Below, piece after piece: positions 7,201-32,203 of a stretch of DNA of 33,804 nucleotides. The notes under the pieces were generated by a model. It had not been told where the DNA came from and did no database searches. It saw nothing but the letters and a program-made list of their open reading frames with translations. This stretch comes from a virus. Every line of letters starts with the position of its first letter. The stretch's first letter is position 1. The stretch covers positions 1-33,804 of IMG/VR virus record IMGVR_UViG_3300044993_000139; one strand, 5' to 3'. Position numbers and translations under genes: made by a program.

Positions 7201-10136
7201 TGCGCCGCCATGTCGGCCAGCAGGCGCTTGAGCATGTCCTTGAGCCGGCCGGCCGTGTCCCTGAACCCGTTGACCAAGCCGTCGCCGAGAATGTTGGCGA
7301 ACGCATCGCCGAAGCTGCCCCAATAGCGGGTCGATTCTTCGGCCGCCTGACGCGCGGCCGCAGCCACCTGACCCTGTGCGGTGGCGGCTTCGGCCGCGGC
7401 GCCAGCGCTAGCGATCAGGGCCGCAGCCTCCTCGCGCAGACCTGCGTTGCCGTCCTTGATCGCGGCCTCGACCAGCCGACGCATCTCCTCCTCGGCGCGC
7501 AGCCGGGCGGCCAGCCGCTCGCGCTCGGCGCCGGACATCTGAGCCGCGGCGGCCTCCGCGCGGATTTGCGGGATCAACCCGTTTACCGCTGCAAGGCTGC
7601 GCTGCTGCGCGGCGATCGTCTGATCGACCGTGGCGTTGTATCGCTCCCGCTGGCGCGTCGCGCTCGCCAGCAGCTCCGCCTCGCGCTCGCTGGTCAGCTG
7701 GCCAGTCTTGGCCAGCCTCGCACGGATCGCATCGATGCGCTCCAGGGCCGCGACGTACTCCAGCGCGGCGCGAGTGATCGCCGGCACGTCTTGGCCGGCT
7801 TGCTGGCGCAGGGCGGCGGAGTACTCGTCGACGGCCGACTTGGCCTCGCGGGCGGCAGCGGCAGCGTCGCGCTTGGCCGTCGCGGAGCCGCGGTTGGCTT
7901 TGCGGGCGGCGTCCAGGCTGCCCTCCAGGGTGGTGATCGATCCCGTCAGCCGCTCCAGCTCCGCACGCTGCTCGGCGCTGGCGCCGGTCAGGCCGATCTG
8001 CTCAGCCCGCAGCCGCGCGACTGCCGCGGCGCCGCCTTGCGCGCTTGCGATCTGCTCGCGCAACGCCTGCTCTTGTTTCTTGAGGTCTTCGATCAGGCCG
8101 GCAAAGCCCTCGCGCGCCTTGAGGTCCACCGGCTCGGCGTTGGCCTCGCGGATCGCATCGCGGACCCGACCGATCGCCGCAGCGACTGGATCGGCCGCGG
8201 ACATGATCTCGACAAAGCCCTGCGCGCTCGCGCGGACCCAGTTGGTCGTGCTGTTGCTGAGTTGGGCGGCGGTGCTGTCGAGGGTCTGCAGCTGCTGCTG
8301 CAGGCTTTCGACCTCGCGTGCGGCACGCTGCAGGCTGGCATCGGCACCCATCAGATCGGACCCACCGGCCCGCGCAGGCGCCTGGCTGCTGGCACGGCGG
8401 AGCTCGGCGAGCCGCGCCTCGGCTGCGGCCACCCGCTCGACGATGGCCTGGCGCTCGCGCAGGATGTCCTGATAGAGCTGCTCGTCGGTCTGCAGTGACT
8501 GCGCGGTGATGCGGCTCTGCTCGATGCGTTGCTGAGCGCGTTGCACGGCAGTCTCGGCCTGTCCAGCAGACGCCTCTGCCGCACTGCCCCACACGGACCA
8601 CGCAACGGCGCCGACCGTAAGCGCGGTCACCACGGCCCCAAGCGGACCGCCGACGAAGGCCAGCAGCCCGGCGCCTGCGGCGCGCACCGTCGCCAAGAAT
8701 CCCCCGGCGGCGGCAGCAGCGGCAGTGGACGACGCCGCTGCAGTGGTCTGCGCGGTGGCGAGCGCCGCGGAGCTGCTGGCGGCCGCGGCCTGCGCGGCGG
8801 CGAGGGCGGCAGTCGAGGCAGTCACGCGCTGAGTCGCGGCCTCGCGGGCCGCCAGCGCGAAGGCCACGCGCTGCTGCGCTACTGCCAACTCTGCCGCACC
8901 CACGCCGGCGAATCGCACCTGACGCTGCAGGGCCTGCTCGGCCTGCGTGGTCCGCAGCACCTCAAGACGCGAGCGCTGCAGCTCCGCAGCCGCAGCGGCT
9001 GCACTGGCCTGCGCGGCGGCGACAGCAGCGGCAGTCGTCTGCGCCTGGATGCCCAGCGAGCGGACGCGCGCGGCGTCGATTGCGGCGATCATGTCCAGCC
9101 GCGCGGAATCGGCCGCGACGGCCAGCCGAGACGCTTGGACTTGCGCGATCTGCGAGGCGATGTACCCCTGCCCAGCCTGCACCGCCCGCCCGAGACCGAC
9201 CGCCACGGCGCCGAGCGCGAGCGGTCCGGCGATCTCGGCGAGGACGCCGGCGAGGGTCGTCGCCGGGCCGAGCAGCCCCTGCAGCGAGCCCGCACCCGCG
9301 ATGATCGCGGCAGCTACGCTGGCCGACGCGCCGGTTGCGGCGTCGATCTTGCCGACGAATTGCGTCACGGCATTGCCCGCGACCGTCAGCGCGCCTTCGA
9401 TGGTCGGCGGGAGCTTCGCGAACTCGGCGGCGATCTTTGCGGCCTGTTCGCCGGTCAGCGCCCGGGACAGGACTTCGCTGGTGAGCTTGCCCTCCTCCGC
9501 CATTTTGCGCAGGGCCCCGGTGCCGACGCCGAGGCTTTCGGCCAGCGCGCGCACCAAGCGCGGCGCGGCTTCGTTGATCGAGTTGAACTCGTCGCCCCGT
9601 AGCGCTCCGCTGGCGAAGGCTTGCCCCAGCTGGACGATGGCGCCGTCGGCCGCGGCGGCACTGGCGCCACTGATGACCATCGCCTGCGACACGCTGCGGG
9701 TGATCGTCGCCAGTTGCTCCTGGCTGGCGCCGGTCTCGCGCAGCGAGGACGACAGCCGCGCATACAGCCCGGTCACCGCCTCCAGAGGCTGCCGGGTGCC
9801 CTGCGCGATGGCAAAGACGGTCTCCTGCGCAGCGCCGAACTCCCGCGACGACGACGTGGCCAGCGTCAGCTGACCCGTCATCCGCGTATACGCATCAGCC
9901 GCCTGCACCAGCCGCCCGGTCGCAAATGCCGCGGCCGCGGCCCCTGCCATCCCGAGCAGGGCCGTCCGCGCCTGATCCAAACGACCCGCCAGGCCGCCGG
10001 AAGCGTCGCCCGCGGCCCGGAGGCTCGCGGTCACATCGCCGCCAGCGCGGGTGCCGGCGTCGCGGATGCCGTCCAGCGCGCGGATCGCGACGGAGCCGTC
10101 GGCCTGGATGACGAGGCGGACGCGGATGTCGGTCAC
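4209..10136 (-). CDS. tail tape measure protein
   Basis: At 1975 residues this is by far the longest gene. The N-terminal 250 residues match the tape-measure N-terminal type (ALDGIRDAGTRAGGDV, LYARLSSSLRETGASQEQLA, DEFNSINEAAPRLVRALAES). Long Ala/Glu/Arg-rich helical and coiled-coil stretches follow. There is a hydrophobic segment at about residues 482-515 (LLAFVGGPLGAVVTALTVG) and a Gly-rich hydrophobic region at about 1005-1115, both typical of tape measures that insert into the membrane during DNA entry. The start is GTG, overlapping the upstream stop (GTGA at 10133-10136). At about 1.5 angstrom per residue, a tail of nearly 300 nm would be predicted, which is long for this group. Confidence 0.95.
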   Translation of the reverse strand: MTDIRVRLVIQADGSVAIRALDGIRDAGTRAGGDVTASLRAAGDASGGLAGRLDQARTALLGMAGAAAAAFATGRLVQAADAYTRMTGQLTLATSSSREFGAAQETVFAIAQGTRQPLEAVTGLYARLSSSLRETGASQEQLATITRSVSQAMVISGASAAAADGAIVQLGQAFASGALRGDEFNSINEAAPRLVRALAESLGVGTGALRKMAEEGKLTSEVLSRALTGEQAAKIAAEFAKLPPTIEGALTVAGNAVTQFVGKIDAATGASASVAAAIIAGAGSLQGLLGPATTLAGVLAEIAGPLALGAVAVGLGRAVQAGQGYIASQIAQVQASRLAVAADSARLDMIAAIDAARVRSLGIQAQTTAAAVAAAQASAAAAAAELQRSRLEVLRTTQAEQALQRQVRFAGVGAAELAVAQQRVAFALAAREAATQRVTASTAALAAAQAAAASSSAALATAQTTAAASSTAAAAAAGGFLATVRAAGAGLLAFVGGPLGAVVTALTVGAVAWSVWGSAAEASAGQAETAVQRAQQRIEQSRITAQSLQTDEQLYQDILRERQAIVERVAAAEARLAELRRASSQAPARAGGSDLMGADASLQRAAREVESLQQQLQTLDSTAAQLSNSTTNWVRASAQGFVEIMSAADPVAAAIGRVRDAIREANAEPVDLKAREGFAGLIEDLKKQEQALREQIASAQGGAAAVARLRAEQIGLTGASAEQRAELERLTGSITTLEGSLDAARKANRGSATAKRDAAAAAREAKSAVDEYSAALRQQAGQDVPAITRAALEYVAALERIDAIRARLAKTGQLTSEREAELLASATRQRERYNATVDQTIAAQQRSLAAVNGLIPQIRAEAAAAQMSGAERERLAARLRAEEEMRRLVEAAIKDGNAGLREEAAALIASAGAAAEAATAQGQVAAAARQAAEESTRYWGSFGDAFANILGDGLVNGFRDTAGRLKDMLKRLLADMAAQIAAQRLVIPLLARLGLPTAGMQLGSGPGLLQLLSGGGGQGGGGLLGSIGSLFGLGGGAGGGGLFGSIASGVGGAVRGVLGSILGIGGGTAAAAGLGAVGAAGGSAGLGLAGLGGGAAAGAGAFAGATAGASAGLGLMGALSSIASVAGPIALAAMAINSLAGGRLFGTSYQTDRSGAQFNFGEGGASGVNFQDQSRRRSLFRGTARRTVESALDDDAQAQIDGLFAAVGQTVASAAAALGTSLPPRITASFRATVDKDGKVISEVGTILGRQFAESFDQFGRRLQAESLIDVIDRSLAGGAAAVGEAIGDAAGAAFQVGASAAGQYGEQLERGITTMLKGATEAVQGEASRIAERWRSDADTLLDGAQMLFAAAVDMRNGMGLLTDGTLTQVADLVEELARSGESLAGAYARVSAETQLYRTALDLMGRSTAEVGEALVRRAVEISEAAGGLDRARQLWDGYFNEFYSAAERAQRAVDEATRRRNSALEALGLDTGITNEAFRRAFEAAADGLSAEQTVRYLEAAEAIRVFSAAVAQAAQAAGTGTVVDDGLSARIAADVATGATGLRGSAEEIGAAVEALRREGESAAAAYERLSAGGATLTEALTLLGVAFEGSAAQFAAAANGVSAEFGSLANDFFSSYFSEAEQQARRAEIAQANYAAALAAAGMAAEQLATREQIRAAVMQALADGNTTLAEQLLRVAAAFNRVEQAAGGAAGAVGGMVDEYGRPIGGAPIGGGGGIIGGGGGGIIGGDAGSGGNDTAREFERVREALRNWWRDLTTGPLSPLTPAQQYAESLREWQAAAAAAQAGDIEAARRLQGLSDGLLRQAQAYLGPGAAYTQLFNQVRQVVGGVAGVVDAGGGQIRPIDGLGDSAGRAASSLERLATAAGMAPGALVSGLTDTISEGIAGLRSQSLQLPIAARLVQIDRPPPGAQDIARPRPVSRPPVRPANDQAEVDPTPALIRQLIRAVEATGEKQINAIRQKPPGAPVRHLMG

Positions 10137-10537
10137 AGCAGGTCATCCTCAAATGTGGCGACGTCGCCACATTTGCCGGCCAGCTCCAGCTGCAGCTGGC
10201 CCATCAGCGTCGGCAGGCTGACCCGGCGCAGCTGGGCGATCTGCACGAGCGAGGTCATGGCTCGCGCGCGCAGGAAGGCCAGCGTGCGGGACAGCTCATC
10301 GTCGGTCTCGGCGAGGTAGTAGCCGTCCTCCGGCGTCGCGCAGATCGGGTGACCGTCGCGGCGCAGGGATTCGACGGCGGACCGCACCTTGCGCTGAGCA
10401 CCCGGACCCCACGACACGCCTTTGTCGCCCGCTTGCATCTTGCGGTCGGCGATGACGAAGGCCAGCAGCCGCACCGTCATGCCGTGCGCCCGGCCCCGCG
10501 GCATCACGGCCAGCACGTCATCAGGGGTGATCGTCAT
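10133..10537 (-). CDS. winged-helix-like protein inside the tail module
   Basis: The 134-residue protein (MTITPDDVLAVMPRGRAHGM start) resembles small phage regulators. Residues about 25-75 suggest a winged helix (VRSAVESLRRDGHPICATPE, then GYYLAETDDELSRTLAFLRA). It lies between the tail chaperone gene and the tape measure, coupled to both by four-base overlaps. DNA-binding proteins are not expected at this place. Near its C-terminus the gene contains a perfect 26-bp palindrome that encodes CGDVATFE. It may be a late regulator or an inserted moron. Function is unknown. Confidence 0.75.
   Translation of the reverse strand: MTITPDDVLAVMPRGRAHGMTVRLLAFVIADRKMQAGDKGVSWGPGAQRKVRSAVESLRRDGHPICATPEDGYYLAETDDELSRTLAFLRARAMTSLVQIAQLRRVSLPTLMGQLQLELAGKCGDVATFEDDLL
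10150..10175. repeat. perfect 26-bp palindrome within coding sequence
   Basis: The two 13-base arms, CAAATGTGGCGAC and its complement, abut with no loop. It lies about 5 codons before the stop of the 134-residue protein. A copy matching at 23 of 26 positions lies in the portal gene (31875-31900). There is no T tract, so a terminator is unlikely. A protein-binding site or a mobile palindromic unit is more plausible. Confidence 0.85.
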
Positions 10538-16748: not shown

Positions 16749-16778
16749 GCGGGCGCGTAGGCGATCCTACGCGCCCGC
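16749..16778 (-). terminator. strong hairpin overlapping the Mor stop codon
   Basis: A perfect 13-base stem (GCGGGCGCGTAGG and its complement) encloses the loop CGAT. The Mor stop codon lies within it. There is no T tract on either strand, so intrinsic termination is uncertain. It marks the border between early and head operons and may protect or attenuate the early transcript. Confidence 0.6.
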
Positions 16779-19573: not shown

Positions 19574-20716
19574 TCAGCGAGTGGCGCGGACCATGTCCGC
19601 GGTGACTTTCGGCGCGCCGAGGTCGGCGGCCTGGTTGATCGCACGCGCCAGCACGTTGTGCACGGCCAGCGGGTACAGGTTGGACTGCGCCCGGCGGCTG
19701 GTGCCGGTGGGCGTGGTCAATCGGGTGGCGATGGCGTCGATTGCGGCGGGCTCGACGACCTCGGCCAGCGTCAGGCCGACGCGGGCGAATCGATGCGACA
19801 GATAGCCGGAGAGGTGCTGGTCCAGCGGGGCGAGGTGCACGACCTCGATGCGCTGCACCACCTCCCGGACCTCCGGGTTTTGCTCGCTGAGCTTGACGCC
19901 CAGCTCGGGCTGACCGATCAGGATGATGGCCAGCAGCGGGCGCATGCCGTCCTTGAGCTCGAGGAATCGCTTGAGGTGCTTGAGCGTCGCGATCGGCATC
20001 GCGTGCGCCTCCTCGATCATCAGCACGTGCCGATGCCCCGCGCGGGACGATTCGCGCAGCGCGTTGTGCAGCTGGCGAAAGCGCGCCTCCGGGCTGCTGT
20101 GCGTGCGGGTCAGCGGGGCGACGACCGCCATGATCGACTCGGCGATGTGCACGGCCTTGAGGCACTTCCCGCGGCTGTCGCTCTCCTCCATCGCCAGCAC
20201 ATAGGGCTGGATCACCAGCGCCGGGTGCTCCTCGCGCTGGATGCGGTCGATCAGCTCCTCGCGCAAGGTCGACTTGCCGGCGCCGGACTCGCCGACGACG
20301 GCGAGCATGCCGCCGTGCTTGACCTTGTCGAGCATCGACTCGCGGACGTAGCGGATGTCGGGGCTGCCGGTGTAGACGTCGGCGATGTCGCGCGGCTCCC
20401 CGAAGGGGTCGCGGGTGATGCGGAAATGGCGACGCGCGTCGGGCGTCAGCGTCTCGCGGCGTAGAAGCATGGTCAGATCCTCCTGGGTTGGGGGCGTTGC
20501 CGGTGATGCGGGTGAGGCGACGGGCGCGGTCCAGTCGTCGGTGATGCCGCGGGCGCGCAGGTACTCGGTGATCGGGCCGCGCACGTCACCGGCCGGCCAC
20601 ACGCCCTGGTTGGCTAAGCGGCTGACGGCGGTGCGGGAGCGGTCGAGGTGGGCGGCAATGTCGCTGAGCGCGACGCCGTGATGACGGCAGAGGTCACGCA
20701 GGCGCAGGGCGGTCAC
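19574..20716 (-). CDS. MuB-like AAA+ ATPase, target-DNA activator
   Basis: The 380-residue protein starts at GTG 20716, overlapping the transposase stop (GTGA). Residues 1-60 form a helix-turn-helix (RDLCRHHGVALSDIAAHLDR, SRTAVSRLANQG), as in MuB. The ATPase has Walker A GESGAGKS at 142-149 and Walker B VLMIEE at 231-236, followed by AH. The family binds target DNA in an ATP-dependent way, delivers it to the transposase and stimulates strand transfer. A Pro/Ala linker (about 64-80) separates the parts. An internal ATG at residue 83 could give a form without the helix-turn-helix. Confidence 0.92.
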   Translation of the reverse strand: MTALRLRDLCRHHGVALSDIAAHLDRSRTAVSRLANQGVWPAGDVRGPITEYLRARGITDDWTAPVASPASPATPPTQEDLTMLLRRETLTPDARRHFRITRDPFGEPRDIADVYTGSPDIRYVRESMLDKVKHGGMLAVVGESGAGKSTLREELIDRIQREEHPALVIQPYVLAMEESDSRGKCLKAVHIAESIMAVVAPLTRTHSSPEARFRQLHNALRESSRAGHRHVLMIEEAHAMPIATLKHLKRFLELKDGMRPLLAIILIGQPELGVKLSEQNPEVREVVQRIEVVHLAPLDQHLSGYLSHRFARVGLTLAEVVEPAAIDAIATRLTTPTGTSRRAQSNLYPLAVHNVLARAINQAADLGAPKVTADMVRATR

Positions 20717-22497
20717 AGGCCACCCCCGACCGCGCGCAGGACCGGGCGCAGCAGCTGCAGCACTGCGGGCGGCAGCTCGTCCTCGGTCAGCCCCTCCGGC
20801 CACCGCTGCTGCGCCTGGGCGTACAGCTCCGGCGTCCACTGCGCGCCGCGCTCGATGACCAGGCGGCGCAGCTCGCGGATCGTGTCCAGCTGGCTCAGCC
20901 GCTGCGCGACGTACCGGCGGCGCTCGGTCGGCACCACCGGCGTGGGCTCGACCACCGTCGGCGCGACGACGTCGCTGGCTTGCCCGGCCCGCGGCAGCGC
21001 CACCACCGGCGCTGTCCACGACTGGGTCGGGTCGATGCTGCCGCCGAAGGGCACGCGCTTGGCCTTGCGGGCAGCCTTCGCCGCGGCGTCGGTGTCGACC
21101 TCCATCGCGAGGCGCTCGATCTCCTTGCGCGCGGCGTCCACCGGAGTCTCCGGCGCCGCCTTGTATTCGGTGCCGATCTGCGCGGCGTCCGACCGGAACC
21201 CCCACTCATCGTGCTGGATGAGCGGCGCGATGTAGTGAGAGGGCTTGCCGTCCTCGCCGTCGATCAGCACGCGGACCGAGCCGTCGAGGTCGAAAGGGTT
21301 GATGACGACGTCGACCTTGGCGCCCTGCACCAGCGTCGGCAGACCGCGCAGGTCGTACTTCTTGCCGCGGAAATTGATGGTGTGGTCGCGGACGGTGCAG
21401 GCCTTCGGCACCGACTGCGGCAGCTGCTGCAGCACGGCCACCGGCGGCGCGAGGGTCAGCTGCTCCGAGGTGATGCGCAGCCACGCATCGCGGCGGGTCA
21501 TGCCGTGGCGGCCGTGCTCCTGGGTGGCTGCGTACCAGGTCGCCCAGCGCACGGCGTGACGGTTGATTTCCTCGAGCGTCTTCACCGGGGACCGCAGCTT
21601 GAGCGGCGCCTCGAAGCTGCGCTCGATGATGTTGTGGGCGCCCTCGACCTGCCCCTTGACGCGCGCCTTGCCGGTCGCGTTCTTGATCGGGTTGATACCG
21701 AGCGCGCGGAGGAAGGTCTGCATGGCGGTCGACCCGAGCACACCGCCGTCGGACATCACGTAGCGCGGCACGCCGTACATCACAGAGTCCGGCCGCTGCG
21801 TCATGGCGAAGATCAGCGCGCTGATGGCGTTCGCCGCCGACTCCGCGCCGAGGCAGTACCACAGCGCGATCGCGCCGGAGCAGTGATCGGTGATCGCGTA
21901 GCGCCAAAGCCGGCGGTCGGCGATCTTGGCCAGGTGCTGCGGCTTGCCCTCGTAGTGCAGGGTTTTGTCGAGCTGCTGCGTGCCGGCGTCCGCGAGGTAG
22001 AACTGCGCAGACAGCGACGCGTCGATCTGCCAGCACCAGTTCGGGTGCGGGCTGCTCAGCGACGTCGCCGGCGTCTCCGCGGCCAGCTGGCCGGGGTGGC
22101 AGTGGTAGTGCCGCATCGCGCGGCTGATTGCCGACAGCGACAGCGGGCGCATCTCGCCGGTGCCCTCGTCGACGCTGCCGGCGAGGATCCGGCCATCCTC
22201 TCGCAGGATGCGCACCGCATCCTCCAGCGTCAGCGCACCGGTGCCGGTCTGCCGGCGGCTGGCCTCGATCAGCGCGGCGATCAGGATCGCCTCCGACTCC
22301 AGCAGCTCGGTCTGACCGGCGTCGGCGCGGCGCCGCCGGCCGGTGTCCGCAAGCTGGTGCTCACGGAGCTGACGATAGGCCGTCTGCACCGATACGCCCA
22401 GCGTCGCAGCGAGGTCCGCGACGATGCGCGTGCGCTCCCCGCGACCGGCAGCAGCCAGCGCGCGGGCGGCATCGACGATGGCGGGGAGCCGGGACAT
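20713..22497 (-). CDS. MuA-like DDE transposase
   Basis: The 594-residue protein starts MSRLPAIVDAARALAAAGRG; the ATG overlaps the upstream stop by one base. Residues about 20-50 form a helix-turn-helix (ADLAATLGVSVQTAYRQLRE). The integrase core has the acidic triad Asp159 (WCWQIDAS), Asp250 (YVMSDGG) and Glu285 (KGQVEGAHN), with D to E spacing of 35. A Mu-type C-terminal beta-barrel follows at about 360-420 (TINFRGKKYDLRGLPTLVQG). The C-terminus (about 500-594) is Pro/Arg-rich and helical, as expected for contact with the ATPase. It catalyses integration and replicative transposition. Confidence 0.94.
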   Translation of the reverse strand: MSRLPAIVDAARALAAAGRGERTRIVADLAATLGVSVQTAYRQLREHQLADTGRRRRADAGQTELLESEAILIAALIEASRRQTGTGALTLEDAVRILREDGRILAGSVDEGTGEMRPLSLSAISRAMRHYHCHPGQLAAETPATSLSSPHPNWCWQIDASLSAQFYLADAGTQQLDKTLHYEGKPQHLAKIADRRLWRYAITDHCSGAIALWYCLGAESAANAISALIFAMTQRPDSVMYGVPRYVMSDGGVLGSTAMQTFLRALGINPIKNATGKARVKGQVEGAHNIIERSFEAPLKLRSPVKTLEEINRHAVRWATWYAATQEHGRHGMTRRDAWLRITSEQLTLAPPVAVLQQLPQSVPKACTVRDHTINFRGKKYDLRGLPTLVQGAKVDVVINPFDLDGSVRVLIDGEDGKPSHYIAPLIQHDEWGFRSDAAQIGTEYKAAPETPVDAARKEIERLAMEVDTDAAAKAARKAKRVPFGGSIDPTQSWTAPVVALPRAGQASDVVAPTVVEPTPVVPTERRRYVAQRLSQLDTIRELRRLVIERGAQWTPELYAQAQQRWPEGLTEDELPPAVLQLLRPVLRAVGGGL

Positions 22498-23390
22498 CAG
22501 CGCACCTCGCTCGCGGGATCGTCGCGCAGCCAATCCGGCGTCGGGTCAGCGCTCACCGCAGCGGGCACGCCGAGCTCATCGCGCAGGCACCGCAGATCGC
22601 GCTCGATCTCCGCAAACACGCCGGCGAGGTAGACGGTCTGATCGATGCCCGCGGCCACGCCAGCCTCGACCAGGACCGCCGCGCGAGTGCGCAGCGATGA
22701 GACCTCCTCGCCCTCGCGTGAGGGGTGAGCAATCACCCGGCTGCGGATTTCGATGGCTACCACCGACACGTCCTGCCGCAGCTGCTCGATCTGCTCGTCG
22801 GGCTTGGCGCTCTGCCACTGCCGGCGGAGCTTGCGGACTTCGGCCTGCAGCCTTTCGTTGCTCTCGCTCTTGTTCCGCGCAAGCTCGCGACTCGCTTCCA
22901 GGTCGAGCTGGAGATCGCGAATCTCCTTGTCACGCTCTGCGCGCCAGGCACGCAGCTCGGCGCGTGTCATCCGTGCAATGTCGTCGACGTCCTTGCCGTC
23001 GACCTTGCCGCCGGTGTCCAGCTCCTTGAGTTCCGAATCAGAAAGCGACAGCAGCTCCGCGACCTTCGACTTCGGCAGCTTCTGCTGGATGAGACCTGCC
23101 GGGTCGACGGTCTCGGCAGCGCGCATCATTTGCCAGGCCGTCGTGCGAGGGATACCGGCGTCTGCGAGGAGCTGCTGCCACTCCCCGCCGGTCTCTCCGA
23201 GATGCGCCTTGGCGACCAGCAGCAGACTACCGGTCCGCAGGAACGATTGAATCGCAGACTCGAATGAGTCGCGGATCAGCGCGGTGTAGTGATCGATGTT
23301 CCACGGCAGACCGGCGGCGTACTTGGCTACCATTTCGCGCTGGTGCTTGAGCAGCTCGGCTTCGCCGCTCACGATGAGTTCTGTGCTCAT
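22497..23390 (-). CDS. DUF3102-like coiled-coil early protein
   Basis: The 297-residue protein starts MSTELIVSGEAELLKHQREM. Residues about 40-95 resemble DUF3102 (FLRTGSLLLVAKAHLGETGG, EWQQLLADAGIPRTTAWQMM), a module found in phage and plasmid replication or partition regions. A long charged coiled coil follows at about 140-205 (RAERDKEIRDLQLDLEASRE). It precedes the transposase, with a one-base overlap, in the early operon. Its role is unknown; DNA binding is plausible. Confidence 0.75.
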   Translation of the reverse strand: MSTELIVSGEAELLKHQREMVAKYAAGLPWNIDHYTALIRDSFESAIQSFLRTGSLLLVAKAHLGETGGEWQQLLADAGIPRTTAWQMMRAAETVDPAGLIQQKLPKSKVAELLSLSDSELKELDTGGKVDGKDVDDIARMTRAELRAWRAERDKEIRDLQLDLEASRELARNKSESNERLQAEVRKLRRQWQSAKPDEQIEQLRQDVSVVAIEIRSRVIAHPSREGEEVSSLRTRAAVLVEAGVAAGIDQTVYLAGVFAEIERDLRCLRDELGVPAAVSADPTPDWLRDDPASEVR

Positions 23391-23399
23391 GGGTTCGCC

Positions 23400-23720
23400 T
23401 CAGTGGTGCCGGCCAGTGCCGGCCAAGTAATTGGTGTTGAACTCGTCGACGCGTTGCTGCAGCCGGACGTATTCCGCTTGGGTCGCGACGGCGATGCGCG
23501 TCATTCGCGAGGAGAGGCGCCAGCTGCCTTCGGCGCCGGGCACTTGCTGCACGAGCCCGAGCGCTTCGAGGTCTTGCAGGTCGCGCAGCGTGGTGCTCGG
23601 CAGCTGCTCAAGCTGTTTTGACAGGGCATTGAGTCGACGGCCGGTGGCCGCGTGCCCGGCTAGCGCCTCGATCAGCCGCCATGCGCGCTCCACGGGCTTT
23701 TTCGCGCTGCGCTCGGTCAT
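23400..23720 (-). CDS. winged-helix (IclR-like) DNA-binding early protein
   Basis: The 106-residue protein reads like an IclR-type winged helix: ERAWRLIEALAGHAATGRRL, NALSKQLEQLPSTTLRDLQD, LEALGLVQQVPGAEGSWRLS, followed by a C-terminal helix (AEYVRLQQRVDEFNTNYLAG). Comparable small helix-turn-helix proteins occur in early regions of Mu-like phages. The ATG overlaps the upstream stop (ATGA). It may tune early transcription, and it lies right beside the three long palindromes, which are candidate binding sites. Confidence 0.8.
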   Translation of the reverse strand: MTERSAKKPVERAWRLIEALAGHAATGRRLNALSKQLEQLPSTTLRDLQDLEALGLVQQVPGAEGSWRLSSRMTRIAVATQAEYVRLQQRVDEFNTNYLAGTGRHH

Positions 23721-24196
23721 GACGTGACTCCAGCCGCGGACTGACGTTCCGCATGCGGAACGTGGGGACCAGCGGCAGACTGACGTTCCGCATGCGGAAC
23801 GTGGGGACCAGCGGCAGACTGACGTTCCGCATGCGGAACGTCAGTCGCCAGCCGAACTCGCCGACTGATCCACGACTCCGCTTCGCAGAGCGCCGTCTGC
23901 CAGCTGATCTCGGCTGCGGCATAGCGGTGCCACCACCGCTCCAAGCGCATGGACAGCTCAGGCCACTCGCTGTCAGGCAGGCCGCGGCGCTGTGCAGCAC
24001 GCTGCACAGCGGTCTCGTAGTCCAGGCGCTGGCGCTGCATCTCGCGCTCCCAGCGGGCCATCTCGGCGAGTTCGATTCGCGCGAGGTCTTGTCGGAGGAA
24101 GCGCAGGAGTGCCGGCACCCACATCGGGACGGTGGTGGCGAGGACGATGACCAGCAAAATTAAGATGCTGGCCCAGATCATGAGCATGTCGTTCAC
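23717..24196 (-). CDS. membrane protein ending in three palindrome-encoded repeats
   Basis: The 159-residue protein starts at GTG 24196, which overlaps the upstream stop (GTGA) and has GGAAG upstream. Residues about 5-27 form a transmembrane segment (MIWASILILLVIVLATTVPM). Residues 35-120 are helical and charged, with RWEREMQRQRLDYETAVQRA. The last 40 residues consist of three copies of a 13-residue unit, VPHAERQSAAGPH, generated by the tandem DNA repeat beneath. Role unknown; a membrane-bound early protein such as a superinfection or host-control factor is possible. Confidence 0.7.
   Translation of the reverse strand: MNDMLMIWASILILLVIVLATTVPMWVPALLRFLRQDLARIELAEMARWEREMQRQRLDYETAVQRAAQRRGLPDSEWPELSMRLERWWHRYAAAEISWQTALCEAESWISRRVRLATDVPHAERQSAAGPHVPHAERQSAAGPHVPHAERQSAAGVTS
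23744..23846. repeat. three tandem copies of a long perfect palindrome
   Basis: The 20-base palindrome ACGTTCCGCATGCGGAACGT occurs at 23744-23763, 23783-23802 and 23822-23841, with a period of 39 bases. The third copy extends to a perfect 30-base palindrome (23817-23846). The intervening sequence (GGGGACCAGCGGCAGACTG) is the same both times. The period is a multiple of three, so the reading frame stays open. Candidate operator or enhancer cluster, about 1 kb from the early promoter. Confidence 0.9.
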
Positions 24197-24534
24197 TTCG
24201 GCTTCCTTTCGTAGACGGTCCCAATCAGCGGCAGCGCACAAGAGCGCTCGATCTTTTCGATGCAGTGCCGGGCAATCCCAGCCGCGTCACTGATCTCCCT
24301 GAGCAGCTTTGCTCGCTCGGCGCACTCTGTTGCCGTGCTCAGCAAGGGCAGAAACCCGCTCACCAATCGCGTGGATTCGCGCACCCCCTTCAGCTCCTCA
24401 CGCACCTCGCGGATTGCAATCTTCACGTCGCGAGAAAAGACAGAATTAGGATCGCTCTTGGCTTCCGTCCCGCTCGCTCGCCAGACCTGGCGAAGCGCGC
24501 GAGTCGGAAGCGGAGGCAGTTTTTCCTCGCTCAT
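24193..24534 (-). CDS. small early protein of unknown function
   Basis: The 113-residue protein starts MSEEKLPPLPTRALRQVWRA; the ATG overlaps the upstream stop (ATGA), and the longer frame to 24849 crosses the promoter and cannot be the gene. It is mainly helical: SRDVKIAIREVREELKGVRE, TECAERAKLLREISDAAGIA. I do not recognise it. Confidence 0.65.
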   Translation of the reverse strand: MSEEKLPPLPTRALRQVWRASGTEAKSDPNSVFSRDVKIAIREVREELKGVRESTRLVSGFLPLLSTATECAERAKLLREISDAAGIARHCIEKIERSCALPLIGTVYERKPK

Positions 24535-29095: not shown

Positions 29096-30684
29096 CGACC
29101 GCGCCGCCGAACCCGATCCCGCGCGCGGCCCCGGAGCACGTCGACCGGGGTTTGCTGTTGCCCTATCAACAGCGCTGGCTTGCCGACAAATCACCGCTCA
29201 AGGTCGCCGAGAAGTCCCGGCGGATCGGCCTGACCTGGGCGGAGGCGGCGGATTGCGCATTGACCGCAGCGCAGACCCGCGCGGATGGCGGGTCAAATTG
29301 CTATTACACCGGTTATAACCGGGAAATGGCGCTGGAGTTCATTCAGACGGTTGCGGCATGGGCGCGTGCATTTGGTCATGCGGCGTCGGATATTCAAGAG
29401 ACCGAGGAAGTATTCGAGGCGGAAAAGGCTGACCAATCGATCCAGGCATTCAATGTCTGGTTCGCGTCGGGCTTTCGCGTGTGCGCACTGTCGTCACGCC
29501 CGAGCAACTTGCGCGGCAAGCAAGGCGTCGTGGTGATCGACGAGGCTGCCTTCCACTGCGACCTGGGCGAGATGCTCAAGGCGGCGCTGGCGCTGGTGAT
29601 CTGGGGCGGCCGGATTCGGGTGATCTCGACGCACGACGGCGCAGACAACCCCTTCGCGCAACTGTGCGATGACCTGCGCAGCGGACGGCAGTCTGGATCG
29701 CTGCACAAGATCAGTTTCCGCGATGCGATTGCGGACGGGCTGGCGCGCCGGATCGCGCGCGTCAAGCGAGTCGAGTACTCGCCGGAGTTCGAAAGCGGGT
29801 TGATCGCCGAGGTCTACGGCTACTACCGCGCCAACGCAGCCGAAGAACTCGACGTTATCCCGTCGGCCGGGTCGGGCACGTACCTGACTCGGGCCCAGAT
29901 CCTGCAGACGCAGGACCCGAGCGTCCCGGTGGTGCGCATCTCGCGGCCGGCGGATTGGTCGCTGCTGCCGCCACCGCAGCGGACGCAGGAGATCGCGGAC
30001 TGGCTGGCGATGCACCTCGCGCCGCACCTGGTGCAGCTGCCGCGCAGTGCTCGGCATTGGTACGGGTTTGACTTTGCGCGCAAGTCGCACAAGTCGTCGA
30101 TGTGGGTGTTGAGCGAGGACGGCACGCGGACGCGATGTGCGCTGGTCGTCGAAATGTCGCGGATGCCGTACGACCAGCAGGCGGAGATTGCGAGCTACAT
30201 CGTCCGCGCGCTGCCGCGCTGGTGTGGTGGCGCGCACGATGCGTCGGGCAATGGCGGGTGGCTGGCCGAAAAGATGGCGGAGCGTTTCGGCGGCATGCGG
30301 ATCACGCAGATCCAGCTGAGCCAGCGCTGGTACTCGGACCACATGCCGCGGCTGCGGGCTGCGATCGAGGACGGCTCGACGACCACGCCGGAGGATGCGG
30401 ACATCCTGGGCGACTTGCGCTCGATCAAGGTCGAGGGCGGCGTGCCGCGGCCGGATTCCGTCGAGGCGATCGGCGCCGACGGCGAAAAGCGGCACGGTGA
30501 CAGCGCGGTCGCGCTGGCCCTGGCGCTTTACGCCCGCGAGTACGCACCCGGCCACGCGGTCGATTGGGCCAGCGCCGGGCCGCGCGGTGGCGTGGTGACG
30601 CAGGACCTGCAGCTGGACCTCGACCGGGGCTTCGGCACCGTGCGAGGGGACCTCGAGGAGACGGATACCTATGGCTACTACTGA
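29092..30684 (+). CDS. large terminase subunit (Mu gp28-like)
   Basis: The 530-residue packaging motor starts at GTG 29092. The ATPase has a Walker A-like stretch EKSRRIGLT at 40-48, Walker B VVVIDE at 146-151, and the coupling motif STHDG at 179-183. The nuclease domain begins with HWYGFDFARKSHKSSMWVLS (Asp327). This is the Mu gp28 type. It cuts and pumps DNA through the portal. The portal gene overlaps its end by 14 bases. Confidence 0.92.
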   Translation: MTTAPPNPIPRAAPEHVDRGLLLPYQQRWLADKSPLKVAEKSRRIGLTWAEAADCALTAAQTRADGGSNCYYTGYNREMALEFIQTVAAWARAFGHAASDIQETEEVFEAEKADQSIQAFNVWFASGFRVCALSSRPSNLRGKQGVVVIDEAAFHCDLGEMLKAALALVIWGGRIRVISTHDGADNPFAQLCDDLRSGRQSGSLHKISFRDAIADGLARRIARVKRVEYSPEFESGLIAEVYGYYRANAAEELDVIPSAGSGTYLTRAQILQTQDPSVPVVRISRPADWSLLPPPQRTQEIADWLAMHLAPHLVQLPRSARHWYGFDFARKSHKSSMWVLSEDGTRTRCALVVEMSRMPYDQQAEIASYIVRALPRWCGGAHDASGNGGWLAEKMAERFGGMRITQIQLSQRWYSDHMPRLRAAIEDGSTTTPEDADILGDLRSIKVEGGVPRPDSVEAIGADGEKRHGDSAVALALALYAREYAPGHAVDWASAGPRGGVVTQDLQLDLDRGFGTVRGDLEETDTYGYY

Positions 30685-32203
30685 TGACATTCCAGCGCGC
30701 CCGACGCGCGCCACGCTCGGCGAGATCGCGACCACGCAGGACGGCATGGACGTCACCCGGTACACGGGTGGCCAGCTGCTGTATCCGACGGATGAGTTGC
30801 TCCGTCAGCGCGGGTCCGGGCTGGATCTGACGATCTACAAGCAGGTGCTCAGCGACCCCAAATGCAGGTCGGCGTTCGGCGAGCGTCAATCGGCAGTGAC
30901 CTCATCTGAGTGGGCGGTGGAGCCGGCCAGCGAGCGGCGCATCGACAAGCGCGCGGCGGAGTACGTGACGCAGCAGCTGCGGCGCGTTGGGCTCGACCGC
31001 ATCACCTCGCTGATGCTGTATTCGATTTGGTACGGCTACGGCGTGGCGGAGTGGATCTACGAGATCCGCGACGGGCTGGTCGGGCTCGATATGTGCCGCG
31101 TCCGGGATCGTCGGCGATTCCGATTCGCGCCGGATGGCTCGCTGCGCATGCTGACACGCTCGCGGATGGCGGAGGGCATCGCGGTGGACCCGGGCAAGTT
31201 CTGGGTGCTGTCGGTCGGGGCGGATCACGATGACGAGCCCTACGGCACCGGGCTGGGCCATTGGGCGTACTGGCCGGTGCTGTTCAAGCGGCAGGGCCTG
31301 GCGCGCTGGCTGACATTCCTGGATCGTTTCGCGCAACCGCTGGCCATCGGCACCTACGACAGCAAGCTGGACGACGAGTCCGGCACGCAGCGGGCGCGGT
31401 TGCTGGCCGCGCTGCGCGCCCTGCGGACTGACAGCGGGATTGCGCTGCCCGAGGGCATGGCGATCACGCTGCTGGAGGCGTCGCGCTCAGGGACGCCCGA
31501 CTATGAGTCCATGTATCGGCTCATGGACCAGGTGCTGTCGCAGGTGATCGTCGGGCAGACGATGACCAGCGAGAGTGGTAGCTCGATGGCGCAGGCGAAC
31601 GTGCATTTGACGGTGCGCGGCGAAATCGTCAAAGCGGACGCAGACCTGATCTGCGAGTCGCTCAATCGTACGGTGGTTACATGGCTAACGCGGTGGAACT
31701 TCGCCGGCGCGGATCCGCCGCGGCTGTATCGCAAGCTGGACCCGCCGAGCGACCTCGACAAGCAATCGGAGCGCGACGAGCGGCTCAGTCGGATCGGATA
31801 CCGGCCGACGCTCATGCAGGTGCAGGCGGACTACGGCGGCGAGTGGGAGCCGATGCCAAATGCGACGGCGTCGACGCATGTGGCGACGTCGCTACATTTG
31901 GATGGGGCAGCGTCCGTGGCCTTCGCCGACGGCGATACGCCGCCGCCGTCGATCGCCGAGACGCTCGCCGACAAGCTGGCGCGAGAGTCGGAGCCGGCCT
32001 GGCGAGAGATCGTCGACGTGATCGAGGCGCGGGTGCAGGCGGCGACCAGCCTGCCGGCGCTGCGGGATGAGCTGCTGTCGATGTGGCCGGAGCTGCCGCG
32101 CGAGCGACTGGCCGCAGCGATGGGCGCGGCGATGGCCGCGGCGGAAGTCATCGGGCAGCTGGATGTGATCGAGGAGTCGGAGGGCACCGCAAATGGCGGA
32201 TGA
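30671..32203 (+). CDS. portal protein (Mu gp29 / DUF935-like)
   Basis: The 510-residue protein contains the DUF935 features: DPKCRSAFGERQSAVTSSEW, the core SLMLYSIWYGYGVAEWIYEI, then RFAQPLAIGTYDSK and MDQVLSQVIVGQTMTSESGS. It forms the dodecameric ring at the capsid vertex. At about residue 402 to 410 a degenerate copy of the 26-bp palindrome encodes THVATSLHL, at the border of the conserved core and the variable C-terminal part. Confidence 0.93.
   Translation: MATTDDIPARPTRATLGEIATTQDGMDVTRYTGGQLLYPTDELLRQRGSGLDLTIYKQVLSDPKCRSAFGERQSAVTSSEWAVEPASERRIDKRAAEYVTQQLRRVGLDRITSLMLYSIWYGYGVAEWIYEIRDGLVGLDMCRVRDRRRFRFAPDGSLRMLTRSRMAEGIAVDPGKFWVLSVGADHDDEPYGTGLGHWAYWPVLFKRQGLARWLTFLDRFAQPLAIGTYDSKLDDESGTQRARLLAALRALRTDSGIALPEGMAITLLEASRSGTPDYESMYRLMDQVLSQVIVGQTMTSESGSSMAQANVHLTVRGEIVKADADLICESLNRTVVTWLTRWNFAGADPPRLYRKLDPPSDLDKQSERDERLSRIGYRPTLMQVQADYGGEWEPMPNATASTHVATSLHLDGAASVAFADGDTPPPSIAETLADKLARESEPAWREIVDVIEARVQAATSLPALRDELLSMWPELPRERLAAAMGAAMAAAEVIGQLDVIEESEGTANGG
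31875..31900. repeat. second, degenerate copy of the 26-bp palindrome
   Basis: This matches the perfect palindrome at 10150-10175 at 23 of 26 positions, including the uninterrupted block ATGTGGCGACGTCGC. It lies in the portal gene. The reading frame is maintained and encodes HVATSLHL, parallel to CGDVATFE at the first site. Confidence 0.75.

Follow-up and report, generated by a model that had tools for sequence, protein, structure and literature searches.

Covarying palindromes of Mu-like phages as probable binding sites of a ParB-like protein encoded beside transposase A

A parS site lies inside spo0J of B. subtilis, and the Mu internal enhancer (IAS) is likewise an element within phage DNA. 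Rickettsia palindromic elements are palindromic DNA in coding sequence, readable in frame, and consist of much longer repeats of one sequence. Jalal et al. (2020, PMC7383237) describe how the recognition helix of ParB enters the grooves of palindromic parS and how few interface residues set specificity. Another paper (PMC7783346) presents KfrA of IncP/IncU plasmids as an autoregulator with a DNA-binding head, a long alpha-helical tail and an accessory maintenance role. MuB target immunity is covered in a third source (PMC5977238).

Here, we analyzed the palindromes of a 33.8-kb virus record from IMG/VR (70% G+C; all 33,804 nucleotides, hereafter the window), which carries Mu-type genes including portal, transposase A and B and tape measure (Table 1). 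Judged from sequence, these palindromes are quite probably DNA sites of the ParB-type HTH protein phrog_1748, with two residues of its recognition helix setting the arms; a triple palindrome would be the window's own site, and those in its tail and portal genes would be foreign. As in ParB/parS and Noc/NBS, a palindromic duplex site would be read by an HTH recognition helix with few specificity residues (here predicted), and the modeled domain fold is weakly similar. In contrast to these systems, the phrog_1748 site is longer (~26 bp), varies between phages and is located in the codons that immediately follow those of the recognition helix. The Mu enhancer and MuB immunity also combine an internal phage DNA element with proteins of the transposition module, a likeness at the level of description. 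Unlike Rickettsia palindromic elements, the phage arms covary with a DNA-binding protein; and unlike REP/BIME, which are extragenic with one sequence per genome, the phage palindromes are intragenic, mostly present in one copy per phage, and differ in their arms within one phage.

The full AlphaFold model of the phrog_1748 protein (mean pLDDT 75, pTM 0.32) contained an HTH with its recognition helix at 112-127 and long helices at 177-214, 220-256 and 261-282. At this pTM, the modeled HTH head and long helices may resemble those of KfrA, whose operator, however, consists of direct repeats at its promoter. Neither a KfrA Pfam match nor, at E<=0.1, a match to the ParB N-terminal/CTPase domain was found in the L011 protein (identical to that of L096), the window protein or the L005 protein. 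The full-length model gave no usable match in Foldseek, and a PDB sequence search with the domain profile returned chance-level rows only. The domain model (pLDDT 82, recognition helix at 56-70) had Spo0J, SopB and P1 ParB among its best Foldseek rows (E 0.9-1.6), all rows being weak (E>=0.8). Its 11 best rows in VIA were all ParB/Noc/Spo0J, with Z of 5.0-4.2, which is too low alone to prove kinship. The resemblance of the modeled domain to ParB/Noc is weak but consistent.

The preliminary description of this DNA had reported a perfect palindrome in the tail module and a related copy in the portal gene, translated as the similar peptides DVATF and HVATS, and both were borne out; the arms of the first are CAAATGTGGCG, with ACGT at the centre. 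It had also considered two related copies unlikely by chance. In 33.8 kb at 70% G+C, 0.003 perfect 26-bp palindromes are expected, and two are present (10150-10175 and the 30-bp palindrome at 23817-23846). The portal copy falls in a linker that was hypervariable when 80 homologue loci were aligned. No NATASTHVATSLHL-like segment was found among the aligned rows from these 80 portal loci, and the KCGDVATF stretch, i.e., the C-terminal tail with the palindrome, was absent from 10 of 10 tail-gene homologue loci, which argues against selection on an ancestral peptide. The same peptide encoded by non-palindromic DNA, which had been named as evidence against the initial interpretation, was thus not what the homologues carried. 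Besides, a link had been proposed between palindromes of the CAAAT.. type and those of the ACGTTCCG.. type, and the two families indeed seem to be connected.

Table 1. Positions of genes, palindromes and palindrome arrays in the window and in other Mu-like records.
Feature	Record	Positions	Strand	Details
Late gene phrog_2113, upstream of tape measure	window	10133-10537	-	last codons include the 10150-10175 palindrome; frame KCGDVATF
Perfect 26-bp palindrome	window	10150-10175		CAAATGTGGCGACGTCGCCACATTTG; two 13-bp arms, 100% complementary, no spacer
Transposition protein B, phrog_296	window	19574-21205	-	
Transposase A, phrog_310	window	20713-22533	-	
phrog_1748 / DUF3102-like gene	window	22497-23390	-	predicted site-specific DNA-binding protein; profile matches E 4.9e-42, 3.8e-29
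IclR-like HTH regulator, phrog_1368	window	23400-23720	-	
Small early gene	window	23717-24196	-	C-terminal tail encoded by triple palindrome; no PHROG match
Triple palindrome, copy 1	window	23741-23766		CTGACGTTCCG-CATG-CGGAACGTGGG
Triple palindrome, copy 2	window	23780-23805		same sequence as copy 1
Triple palindrome, copy 3	window	23817-23846		perfect over 30 bp
Mu-type portal gene, PF06074	window	30671-32203	+	E 3.3e-97; two overlapping palindromes in linker; frame of 31875-31900, HVATS
Second family palindrome	window	31857-31882		CAAATGCGACG-GCGT-CGACGCATGTG; near-palindrome, 9/11 pairs; overlaps 31875-31900; absent from preliminary description
Copy of 10150-10175 palindrome	window	31875-31900		CGCATGTGGCGACGTCGCTACATTTG; 23/26 identical; in variable portal linker
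Short perfect palindrome array, ~1-2 kb	L004	6310-6940		Mu-like phage DNA
Short perfect palindrome array, ~1-2 kb	L009	3922-5897		Mu-like phage DNA
Short perfect palindrome array, ~1-2 kb	L015	7777-9180		Mu-like phage DNA
Long phrog_1748-like protein, 602 aa	L173	15823-17631	+	Mu-like prophage
Long phrog_1748-like protein, 443 aa	L307	8024-9355	-	Mu-like prophage
Truncated B3-type phrog_1748 fragment	L173	15182-15316		helix and palindrome, in site array

Palindromes of 24-30 bp with the consensus CAAA-N5-CG-N4-CG-N5'-TTTG recur in Mu-like phages. Ten further viral contigs and 3 genome records contained the exact pattern AAATGTNGCGACGTCGCNACATTT, and a repeat private to the window phage was therefore rejected. 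Six of these 13 loci (L005, L008, L010, L011, L012 and L014) were inside one gene family and two were in a CI-like regulator. This gene family, phrog_1748, has no explained function, is weakly DUF3102-like and includes B3ORF13 of Pseudomonas phage B3, named 'DUF3102 domain-containing' in RefSeq. For example, the L096 protein matched the phrog_1748 profile at E 3.8e-75, and its domain scored 17.5 bits against DUF3102 (PF11300), below the Pfam gathering cut-off of 24.4; 50 of 57 domains matched DUF3102 at E<=0.01 (best 9.9e-9). In B3, PM105, KP12, phiSHP3 and Ps59, the gene has transposase A on one side and an HTH regulator, IclR-like or of another type, on the other side, and PhiKM has the same neighborhood plus one extra small gene. 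The annotated neighbors were HTH regulators and transposases, with no ParA beside phrog_1748 in B3, PM105, KP12, PhiKM, phiSHP3, JBD25, Bise or Ps59. As a separate observation, Leptospira phage LE1, which is plasmid-like, has a far DUF3102-like relative between parA and parB (L339, 1119-1541), the sole such case. The family palindrome was not found in the DUF3102 gene of this phage or of an uncultured phage (L340).

In the 65 relatives collected, the palindrome occupied one homologous place, and its arms varied by phage yet remained complementary, at least 11 of 13 positions being paired in 53 of 71 rows. An in-gene palindrome (score >=11) was present in 81 of 119 distinct phrog_1748-like proteins, right after the recognition-helix codons, and was perfect in B3, KP12, PhiKM and Ps59; the predicted target of B3ORF13 is CAAAACGGACA-ACGT-TGTCCGTTTTG. 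When whole phages were searched with the pattern, a match was found in 33 of 41 records, about once per genome. REP-like elements of host chromosomes were rejected as a source, since the general pattern occurred 0, 2 and 4 times in G001, G002 and G003, respectively, against one match each for the backwards control; three of the four matches in G003 were by a prophage gene (contig C127) and the fourth was inside a second phrog_1748-like gene (C126).

We found that the arms follow two residues of the helix motif x1-V-A-x2, at the start of the predicted recognition helix (x1 and x2 are residues 113 and 116 of L096, i.e., i and i+3). At arm positions 6-7, Q at x2 goes with GC, R with CG, A, V or H with GT, S with GT or TT, and K with GG. 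From position 8, R at x1 goes with G at 8, S or T with TG or CG at 8-9, H or Y with GC, and K with CG or CT at these two positions. These rules were applied to 39 helix-site pairs from named phages and genomes that had not been used in rule making. The x2 rule fitted 33 of 35 scorable pairs (shuffled mean 11.0, maximum 21) and the x1 rule 35 of 36 (shuffled mean 18.2, maximum 29), although the shuffle values are optimistic because the rows are partly related, e.g., four RQAQ proteins. Pairs with F, W, T or Y at x2, or Q at x1, were unscorable. The exceptions were L262 (RVAR with TGCG) and L234 (left arm only) for x2, and L268 (T with TC) for x1. In addition, two predictions were made in writing ahead of data retrieval: CATATGCGGCG, located in a CI-like gene, should go with an RxAQ helix, and EVRVAQRFM was found; TGTCTCG should go with a KxA[A/V] helix, and DRKVAVKFM was found. 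Our strong inference is that the phrog_1748 protein most likely binds at these palindromes. Mechanistically, this protein, encoded just upstream of transposase A, would read the palindromes on duplex DNA, presumably as a dimer. One may conjecture that it nucleates a complex marking the phage DNA in a parS- or enhancer-like manner.

It is improbable that the palindromes are instead mobile elements (RPE-/REP-like) at tolerated protein sites, with recognition by phrog_1748 being incidental. Such elements would suit the units specific to the window that lie in its portal linker and at its tail C-terminus, those in linkers of CI-like regulators (L201, L203, L007 and L205) and the arrays in L004, L009 and L015. 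However, the position of the main site is conserved in proteins down to ~36% identity, the arms covary and are not one moving sequence, and the helix code is left unexplained. Mobile insertion into the phrog_1748 gene itself was rejected, as homologues have a native segment there, with covarying arms. Of the earlier proposal that palindromic units were inserted at tolerated sites, the part concerning location held, the units being window-specific and situated in a hypervariable linker and C-terminus, but they are not random insertions, as their sequence is predicted by the recognition helix.

Selection acts on the DNA of the in-gene palindrome, far beyond codon constraint. In the 81 genes with an in-gene site, which were preselected out of 119 for having a palindrome, arm pairing was 10.38/11, compared with 4.40/11 after synonymous shuffling by each gene's own codon usage, and 2 of 40,500 shuffles reached the observed pairing. 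The arms, as perfect 11-bp stems closed by 4-nt loops of which many are non-palindromic (TCAA, ATGT), might also suggest hairpins that act in mRNA as a terminator, RNase III site or attenuator. We regard this as very unlikely. The 49 mismatches in 57 distinct palindromes were T-T (17), A-C (12), G-T (9), C-T (5), A-A (3), C-C (2) and A-G (1), so that the signature of RNA pairing, G-U above A-C, was not seen in this set, which points to duplex DNA and not RNA. Moreover, a DNA-type recognition helix predicts the arm sequence, some sites are in a CI-like gene that is on the strand opposite to phrog_1748, and the tail is TTT only.

Comparison of L096 and L098 revealed a swap within the phrog_1748 gene. 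Along four consecutive segments the two had 93/95, 24/45, 98/100 and 62/65 identical residues, and the divergent segment (residues 96-140) holds both the helix and the palindrome; thus, helix and site swap together as one cassette. With the site in the gene beside the residues reading it, specificity and site stay together through swaps. The idea of recombination tags for module exchange, put forward in the preliminary description, applies to this gene but not to the tail or portal genes. A joint swap is also what would be seen if the helix-arm link were mere hitch-hiking in a small recombining cassette whose palindrome is read by another factor, which again appears very improbable. A column scan was carried out over 286 alignment columns of 55 representatives (<75% identity), with palindrome codons left out of the ranking. 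For arm positions 6-7, residue 116 had z 22.6, followed by 113 (11.3) and 112 (7.1), with the rest at 4.1 or below; for positions 8-9, residue 113 had z 11.6, followed by 116 (6.5), 142 (5.3) and 120 (5.0). The signal is therefore at residues 113 and 116 and not between, and no column of residues 117-126, which are nearer to the palindrome, exceeded z 5.0.

Unlinked sites obey the code as well, contrary to what hitch-hiking would give. Among the 39 hold-out pairs, eight had the site outside the gene, and these fitted in 6 of 6 scorable cases for x2 and 8 of 8 for x1. Not counting the window, 23 phages had no in-gene site; 10 of them (G028, G031, G004, G011, PM105, L296, L297, L313, L314 and L319) had a site either 5' of the gene or upstream by 2-3 kb, several inside a CI-like regulator gene, and in the examined flanks of the other 13 (L298, L299, L300, L301, L303, L304, L305, L315, L317, L318, L325, JBD25 and Bise) no site was found. 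In L345 and L347 (1.5-kb flanks), the palindrome was at the 5' end. Template switching is a known mutational route to quasi-palindrome correction, and some palindromes are imperfect, mostly at arm position 5 (19/49 mismatches), but that it maintains perfect palindromes without function is hardly credible, as it gives no reason for two helix residues forecasting the arms or for a right-type site kilobases away in phages without an in-gene site.

Returning to sites read by the phrog_1748 protein, the window's own gene lacks the palindromic segment, and no relatives of its protein were found in the viral contigs searched. Its recognition helix is PRTTAWQMM (x1=T, x2=W). Two genes upstream, at a distance of 351-456 bp from the start codon, is the triple palindrome, ACGTTCCG-CATG-CGGAACGT (CGTTCCG-CATG-CGGAACG) in 39-bp direct repeats (23741-23846). 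The only other helix seen with W at x2 is that of L268 (THAW), whose in-gene palindrome, CAAACGTTCCC / TGGAACATTTG, is imperfect (9/11) and shares CGTTC with the triple; the triple is thus probably the window phage's own site, the weakest link being that there is one comparison protein. On the other hand, the triple has no CAAA ends, and L268 breaks the x1 rule. When the ACGTTCCGNNNNCGGAACGT / window ACGTTCCG palindrome was scanned for, it occurred in 5 viral contigs, in which no phrog_1748-like gene was detected at E<=10. The region 23717-24241 (minus strand) also had a weak Pfam match to Ntox47 (E 0.0005, 20.7 of 25 bits), which is below the cut-off and probably due to chance.

If the triple is the window's own site, then the palindromes at 10150, 31857 and 31875 would be sites of foreign specificity. 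Their arm types are TGTGGCG and, at 31857, TGCGACG, a class otherwise found with proteins that have the helix RVAQ. L338, a distant relative encoded by an AT-rich gene on a 70-kb contig, had the window arms TGTGGCG, CAAATGTGGCG, directly after its helix. Similarly, palindromes with differing arms were grouped in arrays of four to ten in L004, L009 and L015, near the tape measure gene (and, in L015, also adjoining the late activator), as well as in G003 and G001, upstream of long phrog_1748-like genes. The long genes of L173 and L307 have a Mor/C-type late activator nearby and sites of mixed specificity upstream. One element of the G003 array is a fragment, 42 residues long, of a B3-type phrog_1748 gene (E 1.7e-13), with the helix RTAR and an ACGG arm, as the code predicts. 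At least one foreign site therefore consists of part of a gene from another phage; for other array elements, searches for extended likeness to phrog_1748 genes gave short matches, mostly the palindrome itself.

As roles of the foreign sites, titrating the protein of a rival, tagging the DNA against incoming transposition and being left over from recombination would all fit, and any choice among them is conjecture. Somewhat more tentatively than for the reading of duplex DNA, we suggest that foreign sites may titrate the proteins of competing transposing phages or protect against them. A bolder and rather doubtful extension is that Mu-like phages tag themselves through a ParB-like protein with its own address in its gene, and that some collect the addresses of rivals, partly as captured gene fragments and including the tail and portal palindromes of the window, as an anti-competitor device that shelters from transposition or titrates, like plasmid partition incompatibility. 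The mixed-specificity arrays raise the question of whether transposing phages tag themselves, and whether they imitate or titrate the tags of competitors.

In the open-licence literature (titles and abstract openings), no description of these palindromes or of phrog_1748 protein function was found. A family without known function that occurs in well-studied Pseudomonas phages, B3 among them, can now be viewed as one predicted to bind DNA site-specifically by a readable two-residue code; to our knowledge, few natural HTH families offer one. Its likely binding site is in the codons beside the residues reading it, such that specificity and site would be inherited as one cassette. Elsewhere in the window, the 13-bp inverted repeat GCGGGCGCGTAGG/CCTACGCGCCCGC at 16749-16778 is perfect, has a spacer of 4 nt and is possibly a terminator.
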